A DNA stretch of 64,000 nt from a virus: the IMG/VR virus record IMGVR_UViG_3300023174_000064, positions 62,001 to 126,000 of that record; one strand, written 5' to 3'. Made by a program: the position numbers and the translations under genes. Shown here piece after piece: positions 1,846 to 63,417 of the stretch (within the stretch, counting starts at the first letter, position 1; each line of letters starts with the position of its first letter). The notes under the pieces are model-generated. The model was not told the DNA's origin and did not search any database. It saw nothing but the letters and a program-made list of their open reading frames with translations.

Positions 1846-1847
1846 AA

Positions 1848-2252: not shown

Positions 2253-2290
2253 TATATTCCGCTTTCATTAAAAAATTCAGTAATACGGAA

Positions 2291-2686
2291 TTATTTAGGA
2301 TTTTTAGTATTTGTGCCGCCTTGATCTAAAATGGAAAAAATTTCATCCCAATCTTCTTGTTTGATCAGGTCTACTACTTGCTTTGCTTTGGTGTGAGAAT
2401 ACCCGTATAAGGTCTTTAAAGCGTCTATACGGTCATTAGACTCGTCCTTGATCCACTTGCTGAACCTCTTACGGGGTCGAACCGATATACGCAGAAAGTC
2501 AAACTGCATCTTCTTGTCTAGGCCAGACAAACGATTCATCTCATTGGATAAAAAGATGGTGTCTGAGAAGTAAGAAAGACCCCGGTTGGTAAGAAATGGA
2601 ATATATTCTCGTTCGCAACCGGGATCTTCATCCATCAAAGAAACCTTGGTTTGATTTATGGAATTTAAAAAGTCAAACGGTTTCAT
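2291..2686 (-). CDS. 62: clamp loader small subunit gp62
   Basis: 131 aa from the ATG at 2686 (MKPFDFLNSINQTK). An upstream ATG at 2707 would add seven residues. I prefer 2686 because it forms a TAATG overlap with the stop of the preceding methyltransferase gene. Recognisable gp62 features are the N-terminal xFLNSIN, a central helical block ending in RKRFSKWIK (T4 has RGKRYGKWAK), and the position after gene 44 and before regA. It forms the gp44/62 clamp loader with four copies of gp44. It is shorter than T4 gp62 (187 aa), as in other aquatic T4-like phages. Confidence 0.85.
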   Translation of the reverse strand: MKPFDFLNSINQTKVSLMDEDPGCEREYIPFLTNRGLSYFSDTIFLSNEMNRLSGLDKKMQFDFLRISVRPRKRFSKWIKDESNDRIDALKTLYGYSHTKAKQVVDLIKQEDWDEIFSILDQGGTNTKNPK

Positions 2687-3246: not shown

Positions 3247-3251
3247 TATAT

Positions 3252-4211: not shown

Positions 4212-4212
4212 T

Positions 4213-4899
4213 TTATTCCTTGTAAGTGCTGGTTGCATCCATAGCAACCCAGTAAGTTAGAGGACGACTGGCATGAGTAAACTGGCCAATAACATTCTTG
4301 GACAGGGCTACATGATAATCGCCGTCAAACATCTTCATATTCTCTAACTTGAAGTTGAATGAGAAGTCTGCTTGATCCTTATTGTCTCCAACACGGATAG
4401 AGAACACGTTGCAAGTTGGATCCTTAAGATCCTTAACCACCGCAAGCACGGCATCATCATCAGATACGAAGCACAGATCTGGATTTTGTAGAACTGCACC
4501 TGCACGAGACAGTTCGCGGAAATCGTCACTGGTCAGATCAAACTCAACCACCGCATCAATTTTCTTGATACTCTTGGTTGGATAAGACAGCAGCTTGGGG
4601 TCTGAATAGAAGTACTTAACCTTGGAACCACTTGCTCCGGTAATGGTCATGTACTTGTCGTCAAAGATAAACTCTGGATCTTGGAACAGGGAAATCACAC
4701 CCAGTAGCTTGTTAAGATCCCAGATACCAAACTCAGTATCAAAAGACTCCTCAACCTCGACTTCCGCCATGATATTCTTGGTGGGAGACATAGTTGTGAT
4801 CTTTGATCCAGCCTTTACGTACAGATTAGAGTTAATACCACTGAAATTCTTAAGAATGTTCAGGGTGTCCTTAGAAATTGTTGTTGTCGCTTTTGTCAT
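4213..4899 (-). CDS. 45: sliding clamp gp45
   Basis: 228 aa, the same length as T4 gp45. The N-terminal SKDTLNILKNFSGINSNL and the following clamp fold, with FGIWDLNKLLGVISLF and a C-terminal DGDYHVALSKNVIGQF, are typical. The trimeric ring tethers the DNA polymerase and also activates late transcription through gp33/gp55, both encoded in this window. A ribosome binding site AAGGAA lies about 10 nt upstream of the ATG. Confidence 0.97.
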   Translation of the reverse strand: MTKATTTISKDTLNILKNFSGINSNLYVKAGSKITTMSPTKNIMAEVEVEESFDTEFGIWDLNKLLGVISLFQDPEFIFDDKYMTITGASGSKVKYFYSDPKLLSYPTKSIKKIDAVVEFDLTSDDFRELSRAGAVLQNPDLCFVSDDDAVLAVVKDLKDPTCNVFSIRVGDNKDQADFSFNFKLENMKMFDGDYHVALSKNVIGQFTHASRPLTYWVAMDATSTYKE

Positions 4900-13528: not shown

Positions 13529-14962
13529 TCAGAGACCGAAACCAGTGTTACCGTGGAGATTATTGACGGCAAAGATACGGTAGTATTGGTTACCACCGAG
13601 AGCGTTGATGTCAGTGTTCTCGGCGAATGGATTGGATACCATGCCGTAACGAGTCTTGAAGCCGATCTTGGGTTGGAAAGTGCTTTGATCGACTGCACGT
13701 ACCATTTGTAACGGAACGTATGGGCAGTAGAACACACCAGCGTCGTATGGGCTTGCACCACGATAGCCGACTAGGCAGAAGTTTGCACCAGCAGCAGCGT
13801 ATGGATCGATATAAACCTTGAACTTGCCGTTTAGAACGCCAGCAAAAGTGTTGCCGGTGTCATCAACCTCTAGTTGAGTTTGTAGAGCAGGAGTTAGGTT
13901 TAGGAATCCACCCATGGCGAGAGCTGAAGCTACGTCGCTTGAGCAAACGATGAAGTTACCCTTACCACGACGAGTTTCCTTGGCGATTTGGTTAGCTTCA
14001 CGTTCGATTTGGAACATGAGACCACGGAAACGTTCTGCACTCCAACGACCATCAGAGTCGGTGTTTAGATCGTAAACACCACCAGTGGTGAGATCGGCTT
14101 GTTGGCAACCAGTCTTGGCAGTGCGGTATAGGGTGTAGATTAGCTCGCGGTTGATTTCGTTGAGAATTTCAGTGCTAAGAATGTTAGCAAGTTCGCTCTC
14201 AGCGTCAAGACCGTGAACAGCCTTTAGATCTTGAGCTAGCTCAGTGCTGTACTCTGCCTTTAGGGCGCGAGTCTTGGCTTCTACAGCTAGACGCTCAATG
14301 CTGAATGCCATTTGGTTGAAGTTTAGTTTGCCACTTTCGCCTAATTCTTCACCAACGTTGGTTAACATACCACGGAAGCTGTTGATATCAAAGCTGCTTT
14401 CGCGGATACCAAAGTTGGCACCTTGAGCAAAACCACCGTTGTTGCTACCGCTAACACCGATAGGGTTGATGCCTTGGTTAGCAGCAGTGGCAGCACCAGC
14501 AGAGGTGTTACCTGAACCACCGAACTTAGCAAAAACTTCTTGGAATAGAGCTTCGCGGCCTACACCAACGCTACCGCTTTCGGTTTGAGACTGATAGCGT
14601 GAACGCATGGCAAAGATTAGACCGGTTGGTGCACTCATTGGTTGCACGCCAGCTAGATCGTAAGCCATTAAGTTTGGCATGCTACGACGAACTAGGCTGA
14701 TTAGAATAGGATCGTAACCTGCGAGGTTAGAATTACCACCTGCAGCTTGTGTTACTCGGAAACCGCCTGCACCCATGGCATTGGCAGGGGCTTCAATAAG
14801 ATATTGCTCACGAAGAGCCTTCTCTTGATTTTCTAGTAGCATAGCAGTACACTTTTTCTTGTACGAATCTGAAATTGAAGGAATAGCCTCGTGTTCTAGT
14901 AGAGGGTTCCATTTTTCTACGAGTGTATCGTAGGGGGTAGTTTCGTTAAAATCCATTGACAT
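13529..14962 (-). CDS. 23: major capsid protein gp23
   Basis: 477 aa, HK97 fold in T4-like phages. The start at 14962 has an AAGGAG box 9 nt upstream. The expected gp21 protease site is visible as LIE (55-57) followed by APANAMG, so about 57 residues would be removed on head maturation, as in T4 (after E65). SLVRRSMPNLMAYDLAGVQPMS and the C-terminal YYRIFAVNNLHG are gp23 hallmarks. Preceded by a TATAAATA late promoter and followed by a strong terminator. Confidence 0.98.
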   Translation of the reverse strand: MSMDFNETTPYDTLVEKWNPLLEHEAIPSISDSYKKKCTAMLLENQEKALREQYLIEAPANAMGAGGFRVTQAAGGNSNLAGYDPILISLVRRSMPNLMAYDLAGVQPMSAPTGLIFAMRSRYQSQTESGSVGVGREALFQEVFAKFGGSGNTSAGAATAANQGINPIGVSGSNNGGFAQGANFGIRESSFDINSFRGMLTNVGEELGESGKLNFNQMAFSIERLAVEAKTRALKAEYSTELAQDLKAVHGLDAESELANILSTEILNEINRELIYTLYRTAKTGCQQADLTTGGVYDLNTDSDGRWSAERFRGLMFQIEREANQIAKETRRGKGNFIVCSSDVASALAMGGFLNLTPALQTQLEVDDTGNTFAGVLNGKFKVYIDPYAAAGANFCLVGYRGASPYDAGVFYCPYVPLQMVRAVDQSTFQPKIGFKTRYGMVSNPFAENTDINALGGNQYYRIFAVNNLHGNTGFGL

Positions 14963-14987: not shown

Positions 14988-14995
14988 TATTTATA
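14988..14995 (-). promoter_or_regulatory. late promoter of gene 23 (TATAAATA)
   Basis: Perfect T4-type late box on the minus strand, 25 nt upstream of the gp23 start codon, leaving room for a short leader with the AAGGAG ribosome binding site. Confidence 0.85.
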
Positions 14996-15007: not shown

Positions 15008-16009
15008 TTAGTAAGTCTTAGTTTGACGCGACAGAGCATTTACATATACAGACATGGGGCCTTCAGTGACTGCAGGTGCATTCCATTGCTCTGTAAGTGT
15101 TTCGGTTTGTTGGGCAACTACTGGAGCAGCCTTCAGATAATTTTCTTTGAGAATTAGAAGCTTGTTTTGGAAGTCTTGAGCGTTGCTGAAATCAATGCTC
15201 TCGGCTAGAGAAGCAAGACGTTCAGCGTCTACTTGAGACATATCAGAAACAGTGCTTAGGAAAATAGCACGAGCTTGACCAGCAGTGACTTCTCGGTTGA
15301 GATTCATGTTGGTTTGAATTTGCTCATTGAGAGCAGATTCTAGTTCTTGGTTCTCGTTAAATAGATCTTCAAGAATATCATGCTTCTTTTCTGGAACTTC
15401 AATGTAGTGAGTCTCGAATAGGCTCTTGAGACCACCAATAAAGCTTTCAGAAATTTCGGTACGAATACCGTTTTCTACGGCTAGCTTGTTTTCTTTCATC
15501 CACTCGTCTACAGCATAGTTTAAATACTCGTCTAGACGAGTTGCTAGTTCTTCAGTAACCTTTTGTACTTCTTCTTGAATGATTGAAGCACTTTCACGAA
15601 GAACTTGTTCACGAATCTTGGTGGTGCGCTCGTTGAGAGCAGCTTCAAAGATTACAGCAGTCTTGCTCATGAATTCTTCAGACAGATTTTCACCGTTAAA
15701 TAGTGAACCAAGATGTTCTTGGATTGTGTCTGGAATTTCGTCTTCATGTGCAGCCTCTTGGTCAGGAAGATCTTGACCTGCAGCTGTTGCGTGAGCAGCA
15801 GCCACGTCTCGTGTTTCCTTGGATCGTCTGGCTGCATCACCAGCAAATTGTGCACCGCCTGGACGAAGGCTCATTTGATTGCGTTGAGCACTTCCTTCCA
15901 TCCAACTGGTGTCAAGGGTACCAAGAAATGGTCCCTTACCTGTGGCATCCATTGCACCTTTGCCTGTTGCATCCATTACTACGGGTCGTTGTTGTTGTGT
16001 CTTTTTCAT
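15008..16009 (-). CDS. 22: prohead core scaffold protein gp22
   Basis: 333 aa. The scaffold signature is VDEWMKENKLAVENGIRTEISESFIGGLKSLFETHYIEVP in the centre (residues about 165-205), with long flanking coiled-coil helices. The N-terminus has a short tandem repeat (MDATGKG twice). gp22 forms the prohead core and is degraded by gp21. It sits between the proline-rich insert and gp23, and has its own TATAAATA promoter. Confidence 0.95.
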   Translation of the reverse strand: MKKTQQQRPVVMDATGKGAMDATGKGPFLGTLDTSWMEGSAQRNQMSLRPGGAQFAGDAARRSKETRDVAAAHATAAGQDLPDQEAAHEDEIPDTIQEHLGSLFNGENLSEEFMSKTAVIFEAALNERTTKIREQVLRESASIIQEEVQKVTEELATRLDEYLNYAVDEWMKENKLAVENGIRTEISESFIGGLKSLFETHYIEVPEKKHDILEDLFNENQELESALNEQIQTNMNLNREVTAGQARAIFLSTVSDMSQVDAERLASLAESIDFSNAQDFQNKLLILKENYLKAAPVVAQQTETLTEQWNAPAVTEGPMSVYVNALSRQTKTY

Positions 16010-16031: not shown

Positions 16032-16039
16032 TATTTATA
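16032..16039 (-). promoter_or_regulatory. late promoter of gene 22 (TATAAATA)
   Basis: Perfect late box on the minus strand, 22 nt upstream of the gp22 ATG, in the 69-nt gap after the proline-rich gene. Confidence 0.8.
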
Positions 16040-16078: not shown

Positions 16079-17338
16079 TTAAATCATTCCGTATCGTAGA
16101 TCTTTTTTCATCATCATTAAACGTCTGGCAGCTTCAGTATTCATCTGATCAATATAATTATTTGCCACTTTTCCTGCTAATTTTGCTGTTCCACCAAGAG
16201 CAACACCTGTGGTTTTAGCAAGCGCACCACTTGTTTTGTCGCCCAGCAAATTGGCTGCTATATTTCCTACCACACCGGTAGTAGCGTTCACAGCAATACC
16301 CAGAGGATTTGTTAAATCTAAGATATTTTTATAGTGCTTCATTTGTTCTGCACCTATACCTGACGGATCAAAAATGGCAGCTTGAGCCACTCGACCACTT
16401 CTGATCTTTGCCATAGTTTCTGGAGAAGTTGCAGCCAACATTCTAAAAAAGTTGGTTGTGTCTTCACCAGGAACAGGTTTAGTCATTCTGGAATAAGTTT
16501 CTGCAGCTTTCTTGGGATTTAAAGAAACGTCTAAAGCTTCTGCGGCTGTATCTTTAATTTTTCCAACTACGTCTTTAAATCCTTCGATGTATTTGTTATT
16601 TTGAGTCCACTTGTCAGATTCAATTTTTTTAAATCTTGCTGGATCTTCAGCCTTCATCGCACTAACAGAACCAGAAGGAGTCACGATTCCAGACTCTTGA
16701 TCTGTATCTAAAAGTTTTTCATTTAGAGTAACACTTTCAAGTAAAGACTTTAATGAATTAGGTCTAAATCTGAGAGTTTGTTCAAATATACCACGACTAG
16801 AACGGTTCATTCTAGCCAATCTGGCTGAGTGTCTAGCAGCAGCAAGTTCTTCTGATCGCTTTAATTCATTTTCTTCTGCTCGTTCTCTCATTCTATTTAA
16901 ACGAGCATCTCTTTTTGCTTTTCGTTCTCCTTCCAGTTCCTCTGGAGTTTTTGCTTTTCCGTATCCTTTTACTTTTGGTTTAACAGGAGGTTTTGGAGGT
17001 TCGGGAGTGGGCTCGGGCTTGGGTGGTTCGGGAGTGGGCTCGGGCTTGGGTGGTTCAGGTTCTGGATTAGGAACTAGACCTGGTGGTGGTTCACCGGGAG
17101 CTGGTGGTTGTGGTTCTGGATTAGGAACTAGACCTGGTGGTGGTTCACCGGGAGCTGGTGGTTCAGGTTCTGGATTAGGAACTAGACCTGGTGGTGGCTC
17201 CGGTTCAGAAACTCCTTGTTTATCTGTATTATTATTTTTGTTTTTATCTTTATCTTTACCACCAGCATTACCAGCAGTATCCATTATTGATGGTGGAGTA
17301 ATAACACTTTCTAATAAATTTTTTAATTTGATTTTCAT
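16079..17338 (-). CDS. proline-rich repeat protein between gp21 and gp22, putative internal head protein
   Basis: 419 aa, family not recognised. Residues 1-20 (MKIKLKNLLESVITPP) resemble a gp21-cleavable leader (LLE then S). A proline-rich linker follows, with three 18-aa units (EPEPPAPGEPPPGLVPNP) and two PKPEPTPEP units. A charged helix (ERKAKRDARLNRMRERAEENELKR) comes next, then a second LKSLLESV motif near residue 205, then an Ala/Gly-rich, possibly membrane-active C-terminus (NPLGIAVNATTGVVGNIAANLLG). Its place inside the head operon, and two L-L-E sites, suggest a packaged or core protein processed by gp21. This is inference. Confidence 0.7.
   Translation of the reverse strand: MKIKLKNLLESVITPPSIMDTAGNAGGKDKDKNKNNNTDKQGVSEPEPPPGLVPNPEPEPPAPGEPPPGLVPNPEPQPPAPGEPPPGLVPNPEPEPPKPEPTPEPPKPEPTPEPPKPPVKPKVKGYGKAKTPEELEGERKAKRDARLNRMRERAEENELKRSEELAAARHSARLARMNRSSRGIFEQTLRFRPNSLKSLLESVTLNEKLLDTDQESGIVTPSGSVSAMKAEDPARFKKIESDKWTQNNKYIEGFKDVVGKIKDTAAEALDVSLNPKKAAETYSRMTKPVPGEDTTNFFRMLAATSPETMAKIRSGRVAQAAIFDPSGIGAEQMKHYKNILDLTNPLGIAVNATTGVVGNIAANLLGDKTSGALAKTTGVALGGTAKLAGKVANNYIDQMNTEAARRLMMMKKDLRYGMI
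16998..17205. repeat. tandem coding repeats (2 x 27 bp and about 3 x 54 bp)
   Basis: Two 27-bp units at 16998-17051 encode the PKPEPTPEP repeats. They are followed by about three 54-bp units (period seen from the repeated TCTGGATTAG at 17061, 17115 and 17169) encoding the PPPGLVPNPEPEPPAPGE linker. Near-identity at DNA level indicates recent expansion. Confidence 0.9.
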
Positions 17339-17982
17339 TTTAATTTTCTTAAAAAGTCTTCAAATAATTTTACAGCTTTTTGTTCTAGTTGACGTGCAGA
17401 TACTTTAGAAAGTTCTCGGTGATACTCTTCAATTTGACGTTCAACAAGCATACCATTATCCCAGATCCACTCTTTGCCTTCCATGATACCGTTTACGAAA
17501 GCGTTAGGCGCAGAAGGATCAGCAACAATATCTACAGCGGAAAGCATGAAGTCAGGCTGAACTTCATTGTAACCATTTCTGGCTTTCAGTGAACCCATAC
17601 CACGAGTTGAAACGCCAAGACGAGCACCTTCATTGATCAGATTTTTAACAATCTCACCCATTGGAGTGCTCATAACTTTAGCTTTACCGTACACATCAGA
17701 ACCATCACATTTAAATTCTTTAATAATAATTGCAACACGGTCTAAGTTTACTGTTGGACCTGCTGGATGATTTAGTTCACCAAACGCACGGCTGTTGTTT
17801 ACAAACTCTTTGGTGTAACGATTAACTTCATTTAACAGAATGTGTTTTGGGTACATTCTTTTGTTTCGATTGAGGGTATCGGCTTGCATGAAGGTACCTT
17901 CAATGAAATAATTTTTGCCACCGTCAGCAGCTGCTTCGGTTAAAAACTCTACTTGTTCAACTGTCTCGGTTATTAGTTTCAT
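17335..17982 (-). CDS. 21: prohead core maturation protease gp21
   Basis: 215 aa (T4 212), herpesvirus-assemblin-like serine protease. FIEGTFMQADTLNRNKRMYP starts the domain. The catalytic His is in FGELNHPAGP and the Ser in GVSTRGMGS, with the acidic partner in AVDIVADPSAP. The N-terminal VEFLTEAAA contains an L-x-E self-cleavage site. It cleaves gp23, gp22 and cargo leaders at L/I-x-E. It overlaps the proline-rich gene by 4 nt. Confidence 0.97.
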   Translation of the reverse strand: MKLITETVEQVEFLTEAAADGGKNYFIEGTFMQADTLNRNKRMYPKHILLNEVNRYTKEFVNNSRAFGELNHPAGPTVNLDRVAIIIKEFKCDGSDVYGKAKVMSTPMGEIVKNLINEGARLGVSTRGMGSLKARNGYNEVQPDFMLSAVDIVADPSAPNAFVNGIMEGKEWIWDNGMLVERQIEEYHRELSKVSARQLEQKAVKLFEDFLRKLK

Positions 17983-18768: not shown

Positions 18769-20345
18769 TGCTGTTCTTTCGATTGTTCTTCTTCTGGTTG
18801 TTCTTCTTCTGGTTGCTCTCCGGACAACATTTGTTGATATTGTTGCATGTCTTGTGCTTCTAATTGTTTTTGCATCTCTCTATTTATTTGTGCATCAATT
18901 TCAAGAATTTCTTCTTCTGATTGCTTTAAGAAATATTTTCTCACGTAATCATTAGAAAAGAATCTACCAATGTAGGGAGTTACTGCCGCGATAATATCTA
19001 ATCTTTCTCGAAGAATATCATTATCTTTCAATTCTGCAAAATACGAATCATTATTGAAAGTAAAAGTTATTTCTTGATGGATACGATTCCAATCTTCTTC
19101 ACTCATTATTCCCTTAAGAATTACTTGAGTTCTTAGAATATCTAAAAATAATGTACTAAATCGATGTCGTAAACGATCAATAAATTTATTAAATCGAACT
19201 TCATCTCGGGTAATCTCAGCAGAACGACCCATGTTAAATCCGCTATCTCCCTGCATTCTGGAGAGAGGAACACCCAATGCACGGAACAACTTTTGTTGCA
19301 GGTACATCACGTCTTCCATTTGACCCAAGTTTTGGCCACCGTCTAGCGTGGTAATTTCGGTACCTCGCCCACCTTCACGGCGCGGCATCCAAAAATCTTC
19401 CAACATGCTCATGTGGTTGCGTTCATCACGAATTTGACCAGTAGTAGGATCGTAAAGAATCTTGTTGCGATACCTGTTCATGATTTCGCGCAGGTATTGC
19501 TCGGCTTTTTGTTTTGGTAAATTACCTACATCCACATAAAAAATACGACGTTCTGGTGCACGCGAAATTCGATAAATGGCAACCGCATCTTCAATTTGAC
19601 GAAGAAGATTCAATGGTCTGACAGCTTTTTGTAGATACCCCACAACTCGCTTTGTTGCCGAATCAATGATACCAGAATGTGCGTACGCAATAGTATCTGG
19701 TGCAATTTTCCAACCAGCACTAGTTGTCGGAAACGCAGAATCTTTATCGGTATCTGCGTATACAAAATAATCTTGAACATTTTTAACAGGAGAAAATGGT
19801 GCCATACCACCATAAACTGCTTTATCTTTTTCTATTTTTTTAATCTTTTTAATCTTGATAGGATCAACAGGAATTAATTCTACAATTCCTTTTCTTAGAT
19901 CGTTCTTATCAATTTTTTTATAGTAATATACTTTAGAATCAATATACCATCTTCTAAAAATATCACTTGCTCTATTAGAAAAATCCATTAATTTTAAAAT
20001 GTGATTGTATTCTGTATACACTTTAGTTTTAATAGTTTCAGACAAATTTACTCGATCAAGATTTAACTTGATTGGTTTTCTGTCTTGATCTAAAACTATA
20101 GCTTCATTTACTATATCTTCAATAGCAGCATCCACTTCTGGATACAATGCCATAGAACGATAATGTTGAATCATCTGGTTTTCGTCACGAACCGCACCAG
20201 AAAAATCAACAAATGTACCAAATACTCCACCAGTTTCTAAAATATAAGAACCATCATAAGAATCTGGAGTGATAATATCACCAGTTTGTTTTGATGATTC
20301 TTGCTTTTTTTTACCTATAGAAAATCCAAATAATTCTAATTCCAT
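18765..20345 (-). CDS. 20: portal vertex protein gp20
   Basis: 526 aa (T4 524). Typical segments are MIQHYRSMALYPEVDAAIEDIVNEAIV, DFSNRASDIFRRWYIDSKVYYYK, RIYSRAPERRIFYVDVGNLPK-type (here RISRAPERRIFYVDVG) and EDFWMPRREGGRGTEITTLDGGQNLG. It forms the dodecameric portal and nucleates prohead assembly. The C-terminus has tandem EQPEEE repeats, an acidic tail. Confidence 0.98.
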   Translation of the reverse strand: MELELFGFSIGKKKQESSKQTGDIITPDSYDGSYILETGGVFGTFVDFSGAVRDENQMIQHYRSMALYPEVDAAIEDIVNEAIVLDQDRKPIKLNLDRVNLSETIKTKVYTEYNHILKLMDFSNRASDIFRRWYIDSKVYYYKKIDKNDLRKGIVELIPVDPIKIKKIKKIEKDKAVYGGMAPFSPVKNVQDYFVYADTDKDSAFPTTSAGWKIAPDTIAYAHSGIIDSATKRVVGYLQKAVRPLNLLRQIEDAVAIYRISRAPERRIFYVDVGNLPKQKAEQYLREIMNRYRNKILYDPTTGQIRDERNHMSMLEDFWMPRREGGRGTEITTLDGGQNLGQMEDVMYLQQKLFRALGVPLSRMQGDSGFNMGRSAEITRDEVRFNKFIDRLRHRFSTLFLDILRTQVILKGIMSEEDWNRIHQEITFTFNNDSYFAELKDNDILRERLDIIAAVTPYIGRFFSNDYVRKYFLKQSEEEILEIDAQINREMQKQLEAQDMQQYQQMLSGEQPEEEQPEEEQSKEQQ

Positions 20346-55834: not shown

Positions 55835-56073
55835 TGCTTGTATTCCTTTCGTTCCTGATCACGCTTCTCGCAAATCAGTTGCCATTCCTTATCATCGTTT
55901 GGAAGATAAGTGGTGGCAGCAACATCAACTTCCACCACAGTGGCTCGCCAACCGTCTGGAAGAACCACAACACTGCCGTGTTTCATTTCTTCGTTCATTC
56001 GTGTAACTTCTTGATTTAAAGAACGATTAGAAATTGTATGATTTGGTCGAACTAGTAAAATCTTACGTGTCAT
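55831..56073 (-). CDS. hypothetical protein
   Basis: 80 aa. The opening TRKILLVRPNHTISNRSLN and then GSVVVLPDGWRATVVEVDV look like a small beta-rich domain. It starts at the last base of the PEP-CTERM-like gene stop (1-nt overlap) and overlaps the next gene by 4 nt. Function unknown. Confidence 0.7.
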   Translation of the reverse strand: MTRKILLVRPNHTISNRSLNQEVTRMNEEMKHGSVVVLPDGWRATVVEVDVAATTYLPNDDKEWQLICEKRDQERKEYKQ

Positions 56074-56510
56074 TACTTTTTCCTTTTTCTAAACAGAGCC
56101 GCAATTCCTGCTGCCACAATTAATGTGAGTGAAGCAGGAGCAGGTACAGCCGCTGTTGTAGTGCCTTCAGAAGGAGTTAGTGGTACGCCCAAACAAAATC
56201 CTTCTACCTGATCAAACGCAACTGAAATACAAAACTGTTGATCAGACATCTGGTATGTTCCAACCAACTCGCCGTTTAGGTACAACTTATAGACCCAAAG
56301 ACCAACAGCTTCTCCGGTAAACATGGTATCGCTGTATGTTGCCAGCGGAACTGTATTACCGGAAATAGAACCACCAAATTCGGTGGCCATTGACAGGGCT
56401 GGCTTAAACTGAGGAGGCTGTGTATACGCTTGTGTGGTATACATTGATCCTTCGTATGCAGCCCTATGTGAGAACTGTCCTTGTCCGTAAAATGTAGATG
56501 TAAAACCCAT
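56073..56510 (-). CDS. protein with a PEP-CTERM-like C-terminal sorting signal
   Basis: 145 aa. The last 25 residues have VPAPASLTLIVAAGIAALF followed by RKRKK: a V-P-x-P motif, a hydrophobic helix and a basic end, as in PEP-CTERM exosortase substrates. The body is beta-rich and Tyr/Gln-rich at the N-terminus (FYGQGQFSHRAAYEGSMYTTQAY). No N-terminal signal peptide is visible, unlike true PEP-CTERM proteins, so export would need another route or an upstream start. It lies directly before tRNA-Leu. Confidence 0.75.
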   Translation of the reverse strand: MGFTSTFYGQGQFSHRAAYEGSMYTTQAYTQPPQFKPALSMATEFGGSISGNTVPLATYSDTMFTGEAVGLWVYKLYLNGELVGTYQMSDQQFCISVAFDQVEGFCLGVPLTPSEGTTTAAVPAPASLTLIVAAGIAALFRKRKK

Positions 56511-56732: not shown

Positions 56733-57896
56733 TTATTTGTTATATGCTTGCGGATAGTAAGTGGGAAACCATTCTCCCCTTTTTTGTCTTTCACGAACAG
56801 CTTTGAATCCTGCTGGATCACCTTCTAATTCGCCTTCTGGTGTAATATTAAAAGCAAGACCAGCATCACTTTGAAACATTTTTTCCATTTGTTGCCTAGT
56901 TCTATTATCTGGTGGATGTAATAAACCAACCATACTATCTATTGCGGCGGGAGCTGCAGCTGCCATACCACCTACAACCGCACTGCCTACGCCAGACATT
57001 AAAGCTAAAGTATCAGCAGAAATTGCACCCCGTCTTGCACCACTTGGAGGTGTTTGTGGTTTCGTGGGTGTGGATGCGGAAGCTGGTGTTTGTGTTGTAG
57101 TTGGGGTTACTGGTTTTGAAACTTCTATTGTGCCTGCTCTTAATGGTCCACTAGAATAACCTTCTATTGTGCCTGCTCTTAATGGTCCACTAGAATAACC
57201 TTCTATTGTGCCTGCTCTTAATGGTCCAGAAGAAATATTTGCTGTTGCTTTTGTTGTCTGGGGGGCTAACACATGAGGAGAAAGTATAATTTTTTTGGGA
57301 TCTCTTACATTAATTATTTCATGCGGGACAACTTCTCCAATTTTTTTATCATATGCTTTTATAGCGTCTATTCCTCTTTCATCTAAAGCACTTTGTATTC
57401 GTGCTAAATAGTCAGGGTTTTTTCTATCTTTAAAATTATCTGGAATAGATATTCCCAATCGTTCGCCCACTGTTGGTATATTTTCTCCATAACCCATTTC
57501 TATTGGATTTTCTATATTAGCATACGCAGTAATAATTCTACTACCTGGTGCGTATGAATGTGTAGTTTTACTTGTTGGTGGTTTGAAAGGACGAAGATAC
57601 CATGGTTGTTTTATTTCTATACTATTTGGTATTGTTGTCAGATAACGTTCAGCATAAGTTGGACTTGAAGTCCAATATTGTCCGGGACCCCATGTATTAG
57701 TACCAAGATTATTACTTATTCTTCCTGTTTCTGCAAAATCAAAATTTGGTGTAGCAGACGTTCCACGATATAGTGGTTGAGGTAATCCGGTTTTAGGGTC
57801 TATAGCCTTTGTTCCTTTTAAACGGGTTAAAAGATCATTTACATAATTATTAAATGAATTATCAGATTCTGATAAAAATTGAATAAAGCTTTTCAT
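56733..57896 (-). CDS. putative ADP-ribosyltransferase with capsid-targeting-like leader and 13-aa repeats
   Basis: 387 aa from the ATG at 57896; an ATG at 57923 lies upstream of the late promoter. Residues 1-11 MKSFIQFLSES match T4 capsid-targeting leaders (MKTYQEFIAE), with an L-x-E cleavage site. Residues about 40-210 read LYRGTSATPNFDFAETG, WGPGQYWTSSPTYAERYL, AYANIENPIEM, RGIDAIKAYD and HEIINVRDPKKIIL, the pattern of ADP-ribosyltransferase-like domains (R, T-S-S, then N-P). The catalytic Glu was not placed. Three copies of a 13-aa repeat (SSGPLRAGTIEGY) and an Ala/Gly hydrophobic segment follow. By analogy to T4 Alt, it may be injected and modify host proteins. Confidence 0.65.
   Translation of the reverse strand: MKSFIQFLSESDNSFNNYVNDLLTRLKGTKAIDPKTGLPQPLYRGTSATPNFDFAETGRISNNLGTNTWGPGQYWTSSPTYAERYLTTIPNSIEIKQPWYLRPFKPPTSKTTHSYAPGSRIITAYANIENPIEMGYGENIPTVGERLGISIPDNFKDRKNPDYLARIQSALDERGIDAIKAYDKKIGEVVPHEIINVRDPKKIILSPHVLAPQTTKATANISSGPLRAGTIEGYSSGPLRAGTIEGYSSGPLRAGTIEVSKPVTPTTTQTPASASTPTKPQTPPSGARRGAISADTLALMSGVGSAVVGGMAAAAPAAIDSMVGLLHPPDNRTRQQMEKMFQSDAGLAFNITPEGELEGDPAGFKAVRERQKRGEWFPTYYPQAYNK
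57123..57228. repeat. 39-bp tandem repeat, about 2.7 copies
   Basis: Identical 39-bp units start at 57123, 57162 and 57201 (TTCTATTGTGCCTGCTCTTA and on) and encode the 13-aa SSGPLRAGTIEGY unit in phase. Perfect identity implies recent expansion or slippage. Confidence 0.95.
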
Positions 57897-57901
57897 ACTA
57901 A

Positions 57902-57909
57902 TATTTATA
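57902..57909 (-). promoter_or_regulatory. late promoter (TATAAATA) of the ADP-ribosyltransferase-like gene
   Basis: Perfect minus-strand TATAAATA whose last base is 6 nt from the ATG at 57896, immediately after the T run of the terminator at 57911-57942. The mRNA would start at or next to the ATG. Confidence 0.8.
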
Positions 57910-57910
57910 A

Positions 57911-57942
57911 TAAAAAACCTCACTTTTACGTGAGGTTTTTTA
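57911..57942. terminator. strong bidirectional terminator
   Basis: AAAAAACCTCAC-TTTTAC-GTGAGGTTTTTT, a 6-bp GC-containing stem extended by A/T pairs, with U runs on both strands. It ends transcription from the 58038-58199 gene unit before the late promoter. Confidence 0.93.
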
Positions 57943-58037
57943 AGAGTTATTTGTACGATTCTGTTAGACTCTAATCACAGACAACGCTGAAGTTGTAGCA
58001 CCTTCAGAAAGCTTTTATAATATAAAATAAAGTGTCT

Positions 58038-58199
58038 TTAATAATTCTTAGCAATACTAGGAAGACGACCAAGCCGTTCTAGGGCTTCGCGGGTCTTCTT
58101 CTTGGCATTTTCAGCAATAGCAAGTTGACGATCTCGCGTAGCATTACGCTTACGCTTACGGTGCTTCATGAAAACTTTACGAGTAGGTGTGTTAGCCAT
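58038..58199 (-). CDS. 53-aa highly basic protein
   Basis: ATG at 58199, TAA at 58038-58040. MANTPTRKVFMKHRKRKRNATRDRQLAI...AKKKTREALERLGRLPSIAKNY. Strongly basic with a helical middle, like small nucleic-acid-binding or ribosome-associated proteins, but no family recognised. It has a well-formed sigma70-like promoter just upstream, indicating early expression. The 95 nt between its stop and the terminator contain no other gene I can support. Confidence 0.75.
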   Translation of the reverse strand: MANTPTRKVFMKHRKRKRNATRDRQLAIAENAKKKTREALERLGRLPSIAKNY

Positions 58200-58206
58200 A
58201 ATGTTT

Positions 58207-58234
58207 ATTATATACTACGGTTTAAACAAGTCAA
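58207..58234 (-). promoter_or_regulatory. sigma70-like promoter of the 53-aa basic gene
   Basis: Minus strand TTGACT (58234-58229), 16-nt spacer, TATAAT (58212-58207), 7 nt before the ATG at 58199. It overlaps the 3' end of the 83-aa gene. Confidence 0.75.
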
Positions 58235-58466
58235 ATAATTTATCCCAAAATCTTTTAATAAAATTTGGAAATCCTAGAGGTCCTCGTTGTAGGCTGTACT
58301 GCCAACCAGACAGATCTGTGGCTCTCATAAACTCTTCGGCACTCATTCTGGAGGACTGAGTGGAAATGCTTCTCCACAGCTTAACTTCATTAGACAACAC
58401 CTTGATCTGCTTTAACAGCAGTTCTTGGTATTGTGTATGAAGGTCTCGGCAGTTTTTATCACACAT
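58215..58466 (-). CDS. hypothetical protein downstream of GMP reductase
   Basis: 83 aa. It starts [41 protein letters not shown] (helical) and continues SAEEFMRATDLSGWQYSLQRGPLGFPNFIKRFWDKLFDLFKP, with an amphipathic C-terminal helix. Its ATG overlaps the GMP reductase stop by 1 nt, so it is coupled. Function unknown. Confidence 0.7.
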   Translation of the reverse strand: MCDKNCRDLHTQYQELLLKQIKVLSNEVKLWRSISTQSSRMSAEEFMRATDLSGWQYSLQRGPLGFPNFIKRFWDKLFDLFKP

Positions 58467-59524
58467 TATGAAAAGATCGTATTAATTTGTCGGTTCACTC
58501 GTATAAACGTAGTACACTTTGGAAGATCCTTGAGACGAGCCGCACCAACGTATGTGCAAGCAGAACGAACACCACCAAGAATTTGTTGCATCACACCAGC
58601 CACAGGGCCTGCTGGTTCAACAAACACTCGCTTTCCTTCTGCTGCACGATATGTTGCCACTCCTCCAGAACGCTTCTCCATTGCTGCTGCTGAGGACATC
58701 CCGTAGAACTCCTTGCCCTCGTCTGTCAGCTCGCCTGCTGATTCGTCTGTACCAGCAAACATTCCACCAATCATAACAAAATCTGCACCCGCTCCAAATG
58801 CCTTGGCTACATCACCAGGACAGGTACAACCACCGTCCGATATCACGTAACCACCCAATCCGTGTGCGGCATCAGCACACTCCATGATGCACGACAGTTG
58901 CGGATAGCCAACACCAGCAACCTTGCGAGTCGTGCAGACTGATCCAGGACCAATACCAATCTTTACAATATTTGCTCCTGCAAGAATCAGTGCTTCAGTC
59001 ATTTCTCGTGTCACAACATTTCCAGCAATCAGAATATGATCCGGAAACAATCCACGAATAGTACGAACATAATTCACAAACTTTTCAGTGTACCCGTTTG
59101 CCACATCAATACAAATAAATTTGATGGACTTATGCTTGTTTAGAATTCGTTCAGCCTTTTGAATTTCTTCCATGCTGGAATTCATGTCACCCATGCCCAT
59201 GGTGTACACCACATTAGGTGGCCAGTTCACATGATCCGTGATCCAACCGTACATAAAGTTGTCCCATTCGGCTTCTGTGTAATATTTGTGAATACCACAC
59301 AGTGCATTATATTCTGCTAGGCTGTCAGCCATTTGAAACGTACCAACTGTGTCCATGTTGGCAGCAACAATCGGCACACCAGTCCATTCTTGTTCCATAT
59401 TGTCTGGAAGTTTAAACGTAAACTTGCGTGCCACATCAACTTTACTGCGACTGTCAAGATTACTGCGCTTTGGGCGAATCAGAACGTCGGCAAAATCCAG
59501 CTTGATATCATCTTCAATCTTCAT
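58466..59524 (-). CDS. guaC: GMP reductase (IMPDH/GMPR family)
   Basis: 352 aa. [85 protein letters not shown] (catalytic Cys in SVCTT), [31 protein letters not shown] and [17 protein letters not shown]...[14 protein letters not shown] are those of GMP reductase rather than IMPDH (no CBS insert, TFQMA loop). It converts GMP to IMP with NADPH, a salvage step that would redirect guanine nucleotides to adenine synthesis in infected cells. It has a sigma70-like promoter. Confidence 0.93.
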
Positions 59525-59530
59525 AATAAC

Positions 59531-59559
59531 AATTTACTCCAAAAAAGTCACACAGTCAA
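59531..59559 (-). promoter_or_regulatory. possible sigma70-like promoter of the GMP reductase gene
   Basis: Minus strand TTGACT (59559-59554), 17-nt spacer, TAAATT (59536-59531). The -10 box is weaker than in the others and lies 6 nt before the ATG. Confidence 0.5.
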
Positions 59560-59569
59560 GTAAAAAACA

Positions 59570-59809
59570 TTATTTTCCGCCAGCAGCGTAGTAACCAGAG
59601 ATGGCAGAACGCAGTTTAGTCATGATTTTTGCCAAATTACGCCAATCTTTTTGATCAAGCAGATACTCTTCGTACATACCAAGCACTTCAGCAGCAGTTT
59701 CGGCCAATTTTTGTGAAGTTTTTTCGAGAAGTTCTGATTTTTTCTCTTCAGGCATTGGTAGATCCCCTTGTGGTTCTGGTTTTTTCTTATTGGATGTCAG
59801 TTTTTTCAT
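59570..59809 (-). CDS. hypothetical helical protein
   Basis: 79 aa. MKKLTSNKKKPEPQGDLPMPEEKKSELLEKTSQKLAETAAEVLGMYEEYLLDQKDWRNLAKIMTKLRSAISGYYAAGGK. A flexible Pro/Lys start then a helical hairpin. It overlaps the upstream gene by 23 nt. Function unknown. Confidence 0.75.
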   Translation of the reverse strand: MKKLTSNKKKPEPQGDLPMPEEKKSELLEKTSQKLAETAAEVLGMYEEYLLDQKDWRNLAKIMTKLRSAISGYYAAGGK

Positions 59810-60224
59810 TTCTGATCAATTTAAAAACGCGATTTGGGTAAAAACTTCTCCACTCACTAGCATCTAAGTCCCAAACTGCCATAACTCCTTGTCTATTGTA
59901 TTTAGTTGCAACCGGATCTTTATCTTGCAGAGTACATCTCATGCGTCTCATGGTTCCGTCAGTGATTTTATAAAAGAAAAGAGTGCAAACTCCTTCATTT
60001 AATTGTTCATCAATTTCGGTTGGTGAAGGATTTATTATTTCAACAGGAGTTTTATCTTTTCTTTCCTGAATTTCTGCTAAAGATTGATCAACAAACTTTA
60101 ATTCACCAATAGTTCGTAAAATTTTATTTTCACTTTTGGCAAATTTACCACTAGCATCTCGCGGTTGGAGTGCTTTTGACCACATTCCAGAAAAATCTAA
60201 TGGATTTTTTTTAAATTTTGCCAT
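59787..60224 (-). CDS. Sm/SH3-like small beta-barrel protein (WYL_2/PF10902-like)
   Basis: 145 aa from the ATG at 60224 (MAKFKKNPLDFSGMWSKAL), 1 nt past the upstream stop. The longer frame to 60323 is inside the neighbour. The C-terminal domain (EGVCTLFFYKITDGTMRRMRCTLQDKDP...GVMAVWDLDASEWRSFYPNRVFKLI) matches the phage Sm-like SH3-barrel family seen as WYL_2: R-C-T-L ... V-W-D-L ... W-R-S-F. A nucleic-acid or ligand-binding role is inferred from the fold. Confidence 0.75.
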   Translation of the reverse strand: MAKFKKNPLDFSGMWSKALQPRDASGKFAKSENKILRTIGELKFVDQSLAEIQERKDKTPVEIINPSPTEIDEQLNEGVCTLFFYKITDGTMRRMRCTLQDKDPVATKYNRQGVMAVWDLDASEWRSFYPNRVFKLIRNEKTDIQ

Positions 60225-60225
60225 T

Positions 60226-60597
60226 TTATTCGTAAAAATCCGGATTTTTCTTTCCGTATAGCCGAATAATTTGACCTGCAGTTGCGTTTGCTTCGTTTTC
60301 GCAGTCAGAACCTGTGTCGCCATTCAGTTCTTCACCGTTCACGTTTTGTTTGTGGTGTACAAGTTCGTGTGCAAGTGATCTGGCAACATCAAAAAGTGCT
60401 CGACCTTTGGCGTAAACTTTGATATTTTTAGTGTTTGGGCAATAATTTGCCGTTGTCATGTTGCCGTCTCGTACTTGCACCAATTCAATTTTTGGTGTAT
60501 CTTGTAATTTCAGATGATCACAAGCAAATTGAACAAAATCGTCCAATTTTTCTTCCAACAACATGGTGGTTTTTAGATATTCGTTGAATCCTAACAT
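60226..60597 (-). CDS. small zinc metallopeptidase-like protein (HExxH) with leader-like N-terminus
   Basis: 123 aa. ARSLAHELVHHKQN (HELVH zinc-binding motif, around residue 76) and a downstream acidic stretch (CENEANATAGQIIRLYG, third-ligand Glu likely) define a gluzincin-like core. The N-terminus MLGFNEYLKTTMLLEEKL resembles the capsid leader pattern with an L-L-E site. It is preceded by a perfect TATAAATA late box. Substrate unknown; with packaging, it could act on host proteins after injection. Confidence 0.75.
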   Translation of the reverse strand: MLGFNEYLKTTMLLEEKLDDFVQFACDHLKLQDTPKIELVQVRDGNMTTANYCPNTKNIKVYAKGRALFDVARSLAHELVHHKQNVNGEELNGDTGSDCENEANATAGQIIRLYGKKNPDFYE

Positions 60598-60605
60598 GAC
60601 TCTAG

Positions 60606-60613
60606 TATTTATA
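60606..60613 (-). promoter_or_regulatory. late promoter (TATAAATA) of the HExxH gene
   Basis: Perfect minus-strand TATAAATA 9 nt before the ATG at 60597, in the 33-nt gap to the divergent VanY-like gene. Confidence 0.75.
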
Positions 60614-60630
60614 GAAAGCTAAATATTGGT

Positions 60631-61251
60631 ATGAAATCATTTTTACAACACCTTCAAGAACGTTCTTTATTGGCTCCCATGATGTTGTCTGCTGCAATTG
60701 GTGCAGGAACTCCTCCAGAAGAACCACCACCAACAACCACTACCACTACGACAACAAAACCCACAGAACCAAAAAAACCAAAAACAGTTACTACACAACA
60801 GTACGCAACAGATAATGCAGCAAAAAATGGTATTTTGCAATCTGAAGATTTAACTCTTGTTGGAAATTTACAAAATCCAACACCATGGAATGATAAATTT
60901 GGAGAAAAGCCGTGGTATTTTGGTAAAGCTTATTTAAATCCACAAGCAGCAAGTGCATTTAAAAGAATGGATGACGATTACTATAAAGAAACCGGAAAAC
61001 GTATAGGCATTAATAGTGCTTATAGAAGCCGACAACAGCAAGCAATGTTTGGTGGAAAATATGATGTTGCTGCTCAACCTGGGAAGTCTAGACACGGGCT
61101 AGGATTAGCGTTAGATGTTCAACCAGGAACTCCAGAATTTAATTGGATGAAATCACGAGGTGGCAATTACGGTTGGAAATGGATGAATATTAAGAATGAT
61201 GCTTGCCACTTTGGATACTGTGGAAACATGGAAGTTCCAGATAAAGATTAA
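60631..61251 (+). CDS. VanY-like D,D-carboxypeptidase (M15B) with capsid-targeting-like leader
   Basis: 206 aa. Residues 1-10 MKSFLQHLQE match the L-x-E leader. A Thr/Pro-rich linker (TTTTTTTTKPTEPKKPK) is followed by the M15B core: GINSAYRSRQQQAMF, then SRHGLGLALDVQPG (H..D) and DACHFGY (second His), giving the zinc ligands H, D and H. It cleaves peptidoglycan stem peptides, either for lysis or for entry if carried in the head. No signal peptide, but a hydrophobic stretch APMMLSAAIGAG lies at residues 14-25. Confidence 0.88.
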   Translation: MKSFLQHLQERSLLAPMMLSAAIGAGTPPEEPPPTTTTTTTTKPTEPKKPKTVTTQQYATDNAAKNGILQSEDLTLVGNLQNPTPWNDKFGEKPWYFGKAYLNPQAASAFKRMDDDYYKETGKRIGINSAYRSRQQQAMFGGKYDVAAQPGKSRHGLGLALDVQPGTPEFNWMKSRGGNYGWKWMNIKNDACHFGYCGNMEVPDKD

Positions 61252-61332
61252 TTAAATTAAATAATAATTCCACGTTGACGTAATTTAAATTTCATCCAAT
61301 CGTTGGCATTTTCAAAAACGGTTTTAACTGGT

Positions 61333-62181
61333 TCATAACTTACTTTTGCTGGTTTTTTTTACTTCTTTTCTAGCTTTTATAATTTCTTTCATGCTCATTC
61401 CTGGTATTGCAGAGTGAACAAGTTTAGAGAGCAGGGCGTCTTCTTTGGCTTGAAATTTTATATCCCCTTTTTGTTTTTTCTCTCCCTCATCATAAACACC
61501 AGATAAAGCTCGTATTGTTGCTTCCTGATCTTTAGTTTGTATTCCTAACTGTGTTAAATGTTTTCCTATGTAATATTTGCTTGTTGGTACTGTGGAAAAT
61601 CTTTTAACTCTATCTCCGTGAACTAATGTGATAACATCAATTCCTTCTCTTCTATGATGAGCCGCCAATCCCATTTTTGCTCTTTGAGTATCTTCTTTTC
61701 CTAGTGGAGTTCTAGAAGAAACTTTTCCTTCTTTTGGGGGAACAGGCTTAACTCCTTGTTGTTGTAATTCTTTAGAAAGCCGTGTGGATGAAACAAGAGC
61801 GGGTCTAGGTCCACGTGAAAGAACTCCCCCTTTTATTTCCTCTCCAGTACGTCTAAATGTGGTTGGTGAAGATCTGTCCGTTTTAGATCCAACTTCTTCA
61901 AAAGAAACGTCCAATTCTCCTTTAGCCCCAGGTCTACTAACTTTAACTACCCAACTACCAGATCCATTTTTATGTGGTATTGTGTGAGTATAATCGTGCT
62001 CATGACGATCAACATAAAAGTGCTTGTGTATATCTTTAAAAAATGCGTCTTTATTTTGTTGTGTAATTTTGTGACCTTCGTAAGAATATAATTCACCTAT
62101 TGTATCCGCAGCACCGACCATCTGTGCTTCATCACCCGATTCTCTAGAGGATAAAATAGGTTGTCTAGTTATTTTGCTCAT
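61333..62181 (-). CDS. hypothetical protein with possible frameshifted C-terminus
   Basis: 282 aa in frame. EGHKITQQNKDAFFKDIHKHFYVDRHEHDYTHTIPHKNGSGSWVVKVSRPGAKGELDVSFEEV is a compact His-rich beta region, then a disordered stretch and a helical region ending SMKEIIKARKEVKKTSKSKL. The stop follows an A8 run at 61361-61368. In the frame obtained by skipping one A, the protein continues KPAKVSYEPVKTVFENANDWMKFKLRQ to a stop at 61257-61259, which fits the 80-nt gap. No family recognised. Confidence 0.7.
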   Translation of the reverse strand: MSKITRQPILSSRESGDEAQMVGAADTIGELYSYEGHKITQQNKDAFFKDIHKHFYVDRHEHDYTHTIPHKNGSGSWVVKVSRPGAKGELDVSFEEVGSKTDRSSPTTFRRTGEEIKGGVLSRGPRPALVSSTRLSKELQQQGVKPVPPKEGKVSSRTPLGKEDTQRAKMGLAAHHRREGIDVITLVHGDRVKRFSTVPTSKYYIGKHLTQLGIQTKDQEATIRALSGVYDEGEKKQKGDIKFQAKEDALLSKLVHSAIPGMSMKEIIKARKEVKKTSKSKL

Positions 62182-62226
62182 TTGGGTTGATTAAATACTG
62201 TTATTATAAACTGAATAAAAGCATTT

Positions 62227-63417
62227 TTATTTTTGTTGATTTGCTGGATGATCTTTACCAACAACAACTGGAGAACCAGGTTCGCTTGTTGGTCGTACAG
62301 CAAAGTTTCCTGCTTTTGCTAGATTCTTCTTACCACCTTTAATACGAAGACCAGCAATAACACCTTCATTCTCACCAATACCGTTTAGTTGTTTATCCAA
62401 ATAACGGTGATCGTGAGCGTCTGCATCAACAACTCGCCACTTCTTACCGGTAGCTTCGTCTACCACATGTGAAGGTAGAACACCACCGGGTTTTTCGCCT
62501 CTGCCAGCGTGAACAGCAAACACCATGGCAACAACTCCACCATTATTTAAATGTTGACGTGCGTGATGCCAATTGCTGTCTGGGCCTTGAATACCTGTAG
62601 AAGAAAATGTGAGATGGTAATTATCAGGAAGTTTTTTAGGAGTACCGTCTGTATTCATTACTCTGCTGGCTATCTTGGTGTAATCGTAAAATTGAGTGTT
62701 TTTGTGTTCGCTAAAAATTTCAGGATGTACGGTTTCCCAAGGAATATCAGAAACAACATTTAGACGAGCAACAGCTTTCTTACCTTGTTTGGCCATGGCC
62801 CGTTCGTGTGCGTCTAATTCATTGTGTAGTATTATACCAGCACTTTTTGCTTTAGTTACTACTCTTTCTAATTTTCTTCCCCGTGCTTCTTGACTCATGG
62901 CTCCACGGCCAGTCATGTTTAAACAAGCTTTAGCACACTCTCCGGTTGCACACGGACAAGTATTAATTAAACCGGATTGTTTTTCTGGAAGCAAAGTTAA
63001 TCCTATTGTTCCTCTGTCTGGAATTGTGGATTCTTCTTTTGCTAGTTTGGGATTTCCACCTTGTGCAGTAAATAATTTAGTTCCAGGTCTAATTCCTAAA
63101 TCTGCTCTTGCTGCTTTTTTTGCTTTTTTATCTCTCCAGAGTTTATGTGATTCACCCATGTCTGCTTTCATTGTTGCAAACGAATATTTTTTAGCTTCAG
63201 GTTGAGGAGCAGTGGACGCAAGAACTGGTAATGAGATTTGTTCGCTTAAAAATTCAATATAAGTTTCAAAAGTAATGTCTTCAAATAGTTCATCAAATAC
63301 TGATTCGGTTATTAAACGATCAGCAGTAGTTTCATAATTTTCTACTATTACATCACTAATGGTTCTGAATTGTTTTCCAATAAAACGCTCTATTAATTTT
63401 TTGCTGAATGGATTCAT
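62227..63417 (-). CDS. GP88-family protein (DUF7227 type), possible Fe-S or radical-enzyme fold
   Basis: 396 aa. The GP88 signature is clear: LPEKQSGLINTCPCATGECAKACLNMTGRG (Cys cluster CPCATGEC..C), RVVTKAKSAGIILHNELDAHERAM, ARLNVVSDIPWE, QFYDYTKIASRVM and YHLTFSSTG. Mycobacteriophage gp88 relatives have unknown function, but the Cys cluster suggests a metal or Fe-S site. The N-terminal 60 residues (FSKKLIERFIGK...ETYIEFLSEQISL) include an FLSE site like a gp21 leader. It is followed by a C-terminus with HVVDEATGKKWRVVDADAHD. Confidence 0.85.
   Translation of the reverse strand: MNPFSKKLIERFIGKQFRTISDVIVENYETTADRLITESVFDELFEDITFETYIEFLSEQISLPVLASTAPQPEAKKYSFATMKADMGESHKLWRDKKAKKAARADLGIRPGTKLFTAQGGNPKLAKEESTIPDRGTIGLTLLPEKQSGLINTCPCATGECAKACLNMTGRGAMSQEARGRKLERVVTKAKSAGIILHNELDAHERAMAKQGKKAVARLNVVSDIPWETVHPEIFSEHKNTQFYDYTKIASRVMNTDGTPKKLPDNYHLTFSSTGIQGPDSNWHHARQHLNNGGVVAMVFAVHAGRGEKPGGVLPSHVVDEATGKKWRVVDADAHDHRYLDKQLNGIGENEGVIAGLRIKGGKKNLAKAGNFAVRPTSEPGSPVVVGKDHPANQQK

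Follow-up and report, generated by a model that had tools for sequence, protein, structure and literature searches.

A probable cargo locus in a T4-type phage: unrelated proteins with a common capsid targeting sequence of the T4 internal-protein type

Introduction

Why do proteins with unrelated domains, encoded close together in a phage genome, begin with almost the same ten residues? This question is raised by a locus in IMG/VR virus record IMGVR_UViG_3300023174_000064, a T4-type phage contig of 146,037 bases, of which bases 62001-126000 were analysed as a window of 64,000 nucleotides (nt) with its own positions 1-64000; a second stretch of the same contig, L012, reaches past the window end. 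A preliminary description of window positions 56733-63417 had taken four proteins with such starts, namely an ADP-ribosyltransferase (ART)-like protein, a VanY peptidase, an HExxH protein and a GP88-family protein, as candidates for packaging in the phage head and injection. We conclude that this is, in all likelihood, a cargo locus, in which unrelated proteins carry a common capsid targeting sequence of the type found on T4 internal proteins (IPs). Direct observations here comprise the leaders and the way they cluster, late promoters, the gp21/gp22/gp23 set and the swapping of cargo behind constant leaders; for this phage, packaging, cleavage and injection, as well as the targets of the cargo, are predicted from sequence.

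Results

The leader comprises ten N-terminal residues with the consensus M-K-[ST]-F-x-Q-[HYF]-[LI]-x-E. Across the entire contig, a strict regular expression matched eight open reading frames (ORFs), of which two lie in the window and six at contig positions 127305-131980; all are confined to one 13-kb stretch running past the window end. With a T4-derived form (M..[FYW]..[FYWH][LIVM].E), 8 of the 175 non-overlapping genes matched, in a single cluster; in 500 residue shuffles, the mean was 0.096 and the maximum 1. Since this gene list gains a gene of 567 amino acids (aa) and omits a 71-aa gene that overlaps a neighbour, nine genes in total satisfied one or both definitions, two in the studied region and seven past the window end. 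An aromatic residue at positions 4 and 7, an aliphatic residue at position 8 and Glu10 were found in the ART-like, VanY, methyltransferase and DUF6321 proteins and in those of 71, 125, 177, 190 and 567 aa. The codons of the leader varied among genes (AGC, TCA, TCG or TCT for Ser; TTA, CTC or CTA for Leu), and it is therefore the peptide that is conserved, not the DNA.

The cluster extends about 6 kb beyond the window end, where the seven matching genes are accompanied by others with related or variant starts; the set is thus about three times larger than initially seen. In order of transcription on the minus strand, it encodes the 177-, 190-, 131- and 125-aa proteins, DUF6321, the 71- and 567-aa proteins, the methyltransferase, the 276-aa protein, the nucleotidyltransferase, GP88 and the 282-aa protein; downstream lie VanY (on the opposite strand), HExxH, the IMPDH gene (window 58466-59524) and the ART-like gene. 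The main features are as follows, with slashes marking predicted cleavage sites.

Contig 131447-131980, minus strand: 177-aa gene, strict leader
Contig 129762-130067, minus strand: DUF6321 protein (PF19846, 4e-19), leader
Contig 127847-129550, minus strand: 567-aa gene, MLSFRQYLEE, T4-derived leader form
Contig 127305-127850, minus strand: methyltransferase (PF13489, 4e-9), GTG start, leader
Contig 126149-126979, minus strand: 276-aa gene, variant start MDPITKALHE
Window 63430..64149 (start past window end; contig 125430-126149), minus strand: nucleotidyltransferase-like protein, MKSFRNILRE/A
Window 62227..63417, minus strand: GP88-family protein (PF17338, 1e-33)
Window 61333..62181, minus strand: 282-aa protein within the cluster, without clear leader (MSKITRQPILSSRE)
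Window 60631..61251, plus strand: VanY D,D-peptidase (PF02557, E 4e-9), leader MKSFLQHLQE/R at 60631-60660
Window 60226..60597, minus strand: small metallopeptidase-like HExxH protein, variant leader MLGFNEYLKTTMLLE/E
Window 56733..57896, minus strand: ART-like protein of 387 aa, strict leader MKSFIQFLSE/S at 57867..57896

The ORFs of all four proteins first proposed are real. The leaders of the ART-like protein (MKSFIQFLSE) and VanY (MKSFLQHLQE) proved to be strict matches; HExxH and GP88 carry weaker or different starts. The HExxH protein begins at 60597 (minus strand) with MLGFNEYLKTTMLLEE, which retains Phe4, Tyr7 and Leu8 and lacks Glu10; its first L-x-E is LLE15, the likely cleavage site. 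The nucleotidyltransferase is also a variant, with Ile7. GP88 (MNPFSKKLIE), the 131-aa protein (MDPITRRLIE) and the 276-aa protein have no aromatic residue at position 7 and do not clearly qualify. A second leader class defined by these three (M[DN]P[IF][TSN][KR]xLxE) was considered and rejected: because the strict pattern had three viral matches, which look like chance, we take it as a local variant only. In GP88, the start belongs to a 110-aa N-terminal extension that also holds LITE38 and FLSE59 (ending at residue 59).

The domains were indeed unrelated, as had been noted, with clear matches for VanY (36.7 bits against a curated cut-off of 25, and a match to the YodJ structure at 1e-4) and GP88, and only a sub-threshold match for the ART-like protein. 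In the latter, residues 36-201 matched ART-PolyVal with an E-value of 0.002 (19.4 bits, cut-off 31.2). Its similarity to ORF173 of Dickeya phage LIMEstone1 (BLASTP, 7e-6) is partly owed to the common leader. AlphaFold2 gave a pLDDT of 33 for the ART domain, whose YRG and WTSS motifs were visible in the sequence only, and values in the same 33-34 range for the 177-aa protein. A start of the ART-like gene at the upstream GTG 57923 was rejected in favour of the ATG at 57896. The ART-like protein also contains three tandem 13-aa repeats of the SSGPLRAGTIEGY type at residues about 230-268, together with a C-terminal GELEGDPAGFKAV that is similar to GELYGNPAGFRAV of the 190-aa cargo protein (L012 4874-5446). 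Single-protein searches of viral contigs found no relatives of the ART-like or VanY proteins. A homologue of the nucleotidyltransferase, in L116, showed a weak NTP_transf_2 match.

The perfect late promoters reported for the ART-like and HExxH genes were confirmed: exact TATAAATA sites lie on the minus strand at 57902-57909 and 60606-60613, upstream of the ART-like ATG by 5 nt and of the HExxH start by 8 nt, respectively. A late-promoter-like GCTAAATA at 60618..60625 (plus strand), 5 nt before the VanY ATG, forms a divergent pair with the site at 60606-60613. Exact TATAAATA sites also immediately precede the 177-, 131- and 276-aa genes (three sites in L012 against 0.14 expected), so that five cargo genes have an exact adjoining site. 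The total in the window was not unusual (9 versus 7.0 expected); the evidence is one of placement, not of number. Among the matches listed in a search of viral contigs described below, TATAAATA was found within 60 nt of 13% of the leader genes and of 4.9% of the other ORFs of the leader loci.

Late promoters only 5-6 nt from the ATG were seen in the window (57902-57896 and 60618-60631), in L012 (5987-5980), and in L013, L038 and L082. Given this distance and the T4 spacing, the transcript would begin with the A of AUG or adjacent to it, suggesting that these late mRNAs are leaderless.

The phage also encodes the gp21 protease, together with gp22 and gp23 bearing predicted cleavage sites, in one group of genes.

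Window 13529..14962, minus strand: gp23 major capsid protein (PF07068, 1e-139), propeptide site YLIE57/A
Window 15008..16009, minus strand: gp22 scaffold protein (phrog_237, 1e-69), many L/I-x-E sites
Window 16079..17338, minus strand: extra proline-rich gene between gp21 and gp22, start MKIKLKNLLE/S
Window 17335..17982, minus strand: gp21 prohead protease (S77; PF03420, 4.7e-40; phrog_207, 1.5e-79), the presumed processing enzyme

Exact TATAAATA sites at 14988-14995 and 16032-16039 were assigned to the gp23 and gp22 genes, respectively. Cleavage of gp23 is predicted at L-I-E/A, after residue 57, a site that matches the leader-type cleavage site. With identities of about 56-57%, the nearest relatives of gp23 belonged to cyanophages and Methylophilales phages. 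The proline-rich gene contains PEPPPGLVPNPEP repeats and had no family match in profile searches; it is possibly a further core or cargo protein.

The same locus was found in a 61-kb sister contig, L002. Its flanks are nearly identical (IMPDH and the protein of window 56073-56510 at 98%, neighbouring genes at 97-99%), as is HExxH, at 93%; GP88 shares 56% identity overall, with its extension conserved, and the 567-aa protein 47%. The ART-like gene and the 177- and 190-aa genes are absent from L002. In the slot of the 282-aa gene, it encodes an unrelated protein starting with MFSFAQYLIE. The VanY counterpart is 72% identical over its first 50 residues and then continues as a GH24 lysozyme (PF00959, 2e-25). 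Leaders are thus constant between the sister phages and payloads are exchanged, with unrelated mature proteins sharing only the leader.

Viral contigs were searched with a degenerate DNA form of MK[ST]F[LI]Q[HY][LI]xE. At least 118 stretches matched, against none for a scrambled pattern of the same make-up; a bacterial genome collection of 257 Gb gave 17 matches. The following figures refer to the matches listed. Leaders were present on 53 of the 1196 other genes in the viral leader loci (0.7 expected), and the leader proteins fell into 71 groups without detectable similarity after residue 12. Their Pfam families included ART-PolyVal, zeta-toxin-like kinase, lysozymes, methyltransferases, poly(A)-polymerase/HD and DUF6267/cytidylyltransferase. 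Of the 12 carrier contigs longer than 60 kb, 10 encoded gp21 and/or gp23, and the carriers are therefore T4-type. Two further leader proteins were a homologue of the anti-CBASS protein Acb1 (L030:8640-9134, 4e-17, leader MKTFLQYLSE) and one of S-AdoMet (SAM) lyase (L068:2293-2994, 1.8e-15, leader MKTYREFIAE), which suggests that both are packaged anti-defence enzymes.

Leader proteins have been detected by mass spectrometry in virions of two other T4-type phages, in reports that describe their presence and not their cleavage (PMC3296691; PMC3037559). The LIMEstone1 virion proteome lists ORF173 with 1 peptide and 11.8% coverage (PMC3296691); this protein combines MKTFLQYLQE with an ART-PolyVal domain. 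ORF80 and ORF82 are listed as well (PMC3296691), and start with MKPFIQYFNE and with MSKPSFLQFMQE, a leader offset by two residues, respectively. An inverted repeat, ATACCCCATAC...GTGTGGGGTAT, was observed between the late promoter and the ORF173 ATG (HE600015.1, 135156-135190). In cyanophage S-SM1, the cytidylyltransferase family T4-GC190 was detected in virions (PMC3037559). Annotated orthologues, identified by whole-protein similarity, start with MKSFFQFLSE (S-SM2) and MKKFNAFLIE (P-RSM4), and similar proteins with MKNFHQFITE (S-SRM01), MKNLFQFLAE (AG-345-E15) and MKKFSAFLNE (ACG-2014a). T4-GC190 itself was not found in this contig. A comparison of homologues chosen without bias gave a mixed result: the leader was kept in all five cytidylyltransferase orthologues read and in several DUF6321 proteins, as in L002, and was missing from others discussed below. 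The HExxH homologue in B23 starts with MNYKQFLRE. GP88 of Pelagibacter phage HTVC115P has no N-terminal extension, which fits a T4-specific address, in one case only.

In T4, where the function of such a leader has been dissected, head targeting needs no more of IPIII than its first ten residues; mutagenesis tied residues 4 and 7 to targeting and residues 8 and 10 to processing (PMC9026906). The earlier assignment of the leaders to the T4 internal-protein type is supported by their match to this sequence, together with the encoded gp21 and the L-I-E/A site of gp23. T4 IPs are injected and active in the host (PMC9391042, PMC12373910); Ip1-3, which have only the leader in common, inhibit different GmrSD enzymes in the host cytoplasm after injection (PMC12373910).

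Elsewhere in the contig, the protein of window 56073-56510 (minus strand) carries a C-terminal PEP-CTERM sorting signal (TIGR02595, 17.6 bits, cut-off 16), which hints at a host with exosortase. At contig positions of about 132,000-146,000 (L012 7000-20000), the G+C content rises from 43% to 54-59% and many small plus-strand ORFs occur. L012 has 19 perfect TTGACA-N16-18-TANAAT promoters (0.02 expected), 18 of them beyond position 7000. A mis-join at the jump, at about 132,000, was considered and dropped because L002 carries the same G+C-rich flank (1-4500). The region looks like the early region of the phage, with a promoter per gene, common to the sister contig. L002 also encodes a PurA-like adenylosuccinate synthase (18890-19897) that weakly matched the PurZ model.

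Discussion

The view that a shared leader on diverse enzymes marks a cargo system is supported by the 8 of 175 genes against 0.096 expected, by the swapping in L002, and by the virion homologues. Unrelated proteins with a common head-packaging tag would probably form a mixed enzyme load, delivered into the bacterium with the DNA. Late expression of the cargo proteins would be driven by TATAAATA promoters, and their binding to the gp22 scaffold core would involve leader positions 4 and 7. While clearing the core, gp21 would trim the cargo after Glu10 or a nearby L/I-x-E. After trimming, the proteins would remain alongside the DNA in the head and accompany it into the next host, in which the ART-like protein, methyltransferase, nucleotidyltransferase and peptidases could act at once on host or defence targets.

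Several points weigh against this interpretation. The phage is known from its sequence alone, the detection of ORF173 in LIMEstone1 virions rests on one peptide, and the T4-GC190 leaders were read from annotated orthologues, not from the protein of S-SM1 itself. The ART assignment is sub-threshold, with a low-confidence predicted structure (pLDDT 33), and the M[DN]P-type starts of GP88 and the 131- and 276-aa proteins are not a widespread motif. Finally, the leader is absent from the nucleotidyltransferase orthologues of five cyanophages and from the HExxH homologue of S-SRM01; these leaderless homologues indicate that the tag is an added module, not intrinsic to those enzymes.

For one member of the set, another role is a serious possibility, even if not the one we favour: VanY, and its GH24 counterpart in L002, may be the endolysin. 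Residues 12-27 (SLLAPMMLSAAIGAGT) would in that case be a segment with weak membrane or export function, and packaging would be secondary or absent. This hydrophobic segment, with a mean hydropathy of about 1.4, directly follows the VanY leader; GH24, which fills the VanY slot in L002, is a typical endolysin fold, and no GH24, Amidase_2 or other common endolysin was found elsewhere in the contig. However, VanY has a strict leader, sits in the middle of the cargo locus, and is preceded by a late-promoter-like site 5 nt away, the distance also seen for the ART-like gene; moreover, its cyanophage homologues are annotated as tail or virion proteins.

It is unlikely that the leader merely recruits proteins to the assembly core, as scaffold or head-structure helpers that are degraded or retained in the head instead of being injected. 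The same interaction holds core proteins in T4, where heads assemble slowly in an IPIII mutant (PMC9026906), and several of the cargo proteins are small or basic without an enzyme domain (DUF6321, 71 and 125 aa). Such helpers would hardly comprise 71 unrelated mature groups, including Acb1, SAM lyase, ART-PolyVal and lysozyme, or be swapped rapidly between sister phages, and in T4 the targets of Ip1-3 are GmrSD enzymes in the host cytoplasm (PMC12373910). Still less probable is that the common N-terminus has a purpose other than packaging, for instance in the initiation of translation or in the stability or localisation of late proteins inside the producing cell. Promoters 5-8 nt from the ATG of several genes could constrain the start region; yet conservation is at the protein level, with differing Ser and Leu codons, the conserved positions are those tied by T4 mutagenesis to targeting and cleavage, and the leaders occur in T4-type phages that encode gp21/gp23. 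A resemblance by chance, or a single N-terminus that was recently duplicated, for which the shortness of the motif might speak, can practically be disregarded: the excess of matches (8 against 0.096) and the empty scrambled control already refute it, and the divergent codons also speak against it.

Packaging of the cargo type is thus a known mechanism, that of the T4 IPs, and nine genes here show those features of the class that can be tested in sequence. The novelty lies in the scale, with about a dozen tagged proteins encoded at one locus, in the enzymatic nature of the cargo, in the exchange of domains behind an unchanging tag, and in the distribution of this tag among T4-type phages of other environments. 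Our literature search, which left subscription journals and preprints mostly outside its coverage, found no description, on such a scale, of the tag beyond the T-even group. Fusions and gene context were the basis of earlier surveys of packaged ARTs and 2H enzymes, and a term search of the two papers gave no mention of a capsid-targeting leader (PMC9503650, PMC5512222).

The question of which proteins T4-type phages inject has so far had an answer only for a few internal proteins of T-even phages. In the present case, one short tag with an experimentally understood role leads to an entire cargo locus of an uncultured phage, and the DNA pattern of the tag retrieves dozens of unrelated families. 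We are inclined to think, with some reserve, that the leader is a general T4-type address tag for a large, rapidly shuffled arsenal of injected enzymes, including ready-made anti-defence enzymes such as Acb1 and SAM lyase, and that some phages arrange it in cargo operons that swap catalytic domains while the tag stays constant; if so, the tag alone would reveal injected effectors in any T4-type genome. Should packaging be confirmed, phage-injected effectors would become searchable by sequence, like bacterial effectors with secretion signals.

Compared with known systems, the locus is closest in design to T4 IPI, IPII and IPIII, which share the short leader (aromatic residues 4 and 7, aliphatic 8, Glu10), unrelated mature parts, late genes, a gp21-type protease and variability between close phages. 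Here, by contrast, a single locus encodes at least nine to eleven leader proteins, many of which have enzyme domains; the phage is distant from the T-evens, and the consensus is MKSFLQ[HY][LI]xE, versus MKTYQEFIAE in T4. T4 Alt, a head-packaged ADP-ribosyltransferase, likewise combines an ART-like enzyme with a gp21-type leader and late expression; however, the 387-aa protein described here, with its three 13-aa repeats, resembles ART-PolyVal, weakly and below threshold, and not Alt/VIP2, and RNA polymerase would be no more than a possible target of it. LIMEstone1 ORF173 shares the leader, the ART-PolyVal domain, a late promoter and detection in virions by mass spectrometry, but belongs to the Ackermannviridae and is a single ART protein with no large cargo cluster described. 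The T4-GC190 family has the same type of leader (MKSFFQFLSE, MKKFNAFLIE, MKNFHQFITE) and was detected in S-SM1 virions, but is a core cyanophage gene and not swapped cargo. Finally, the polyvalent and MuF-fused head effectors described by Iyer, Aravind and co-workers are also packaged, injected enzymes, including ARTs and 2H phosphoesterases. Those are large fusions or are fused to head proteins, whereas each protein here had at most one recognised domain, without a MuF or portal domain, and the enzymes are separate, each apparently addressed by a cleavable tag.

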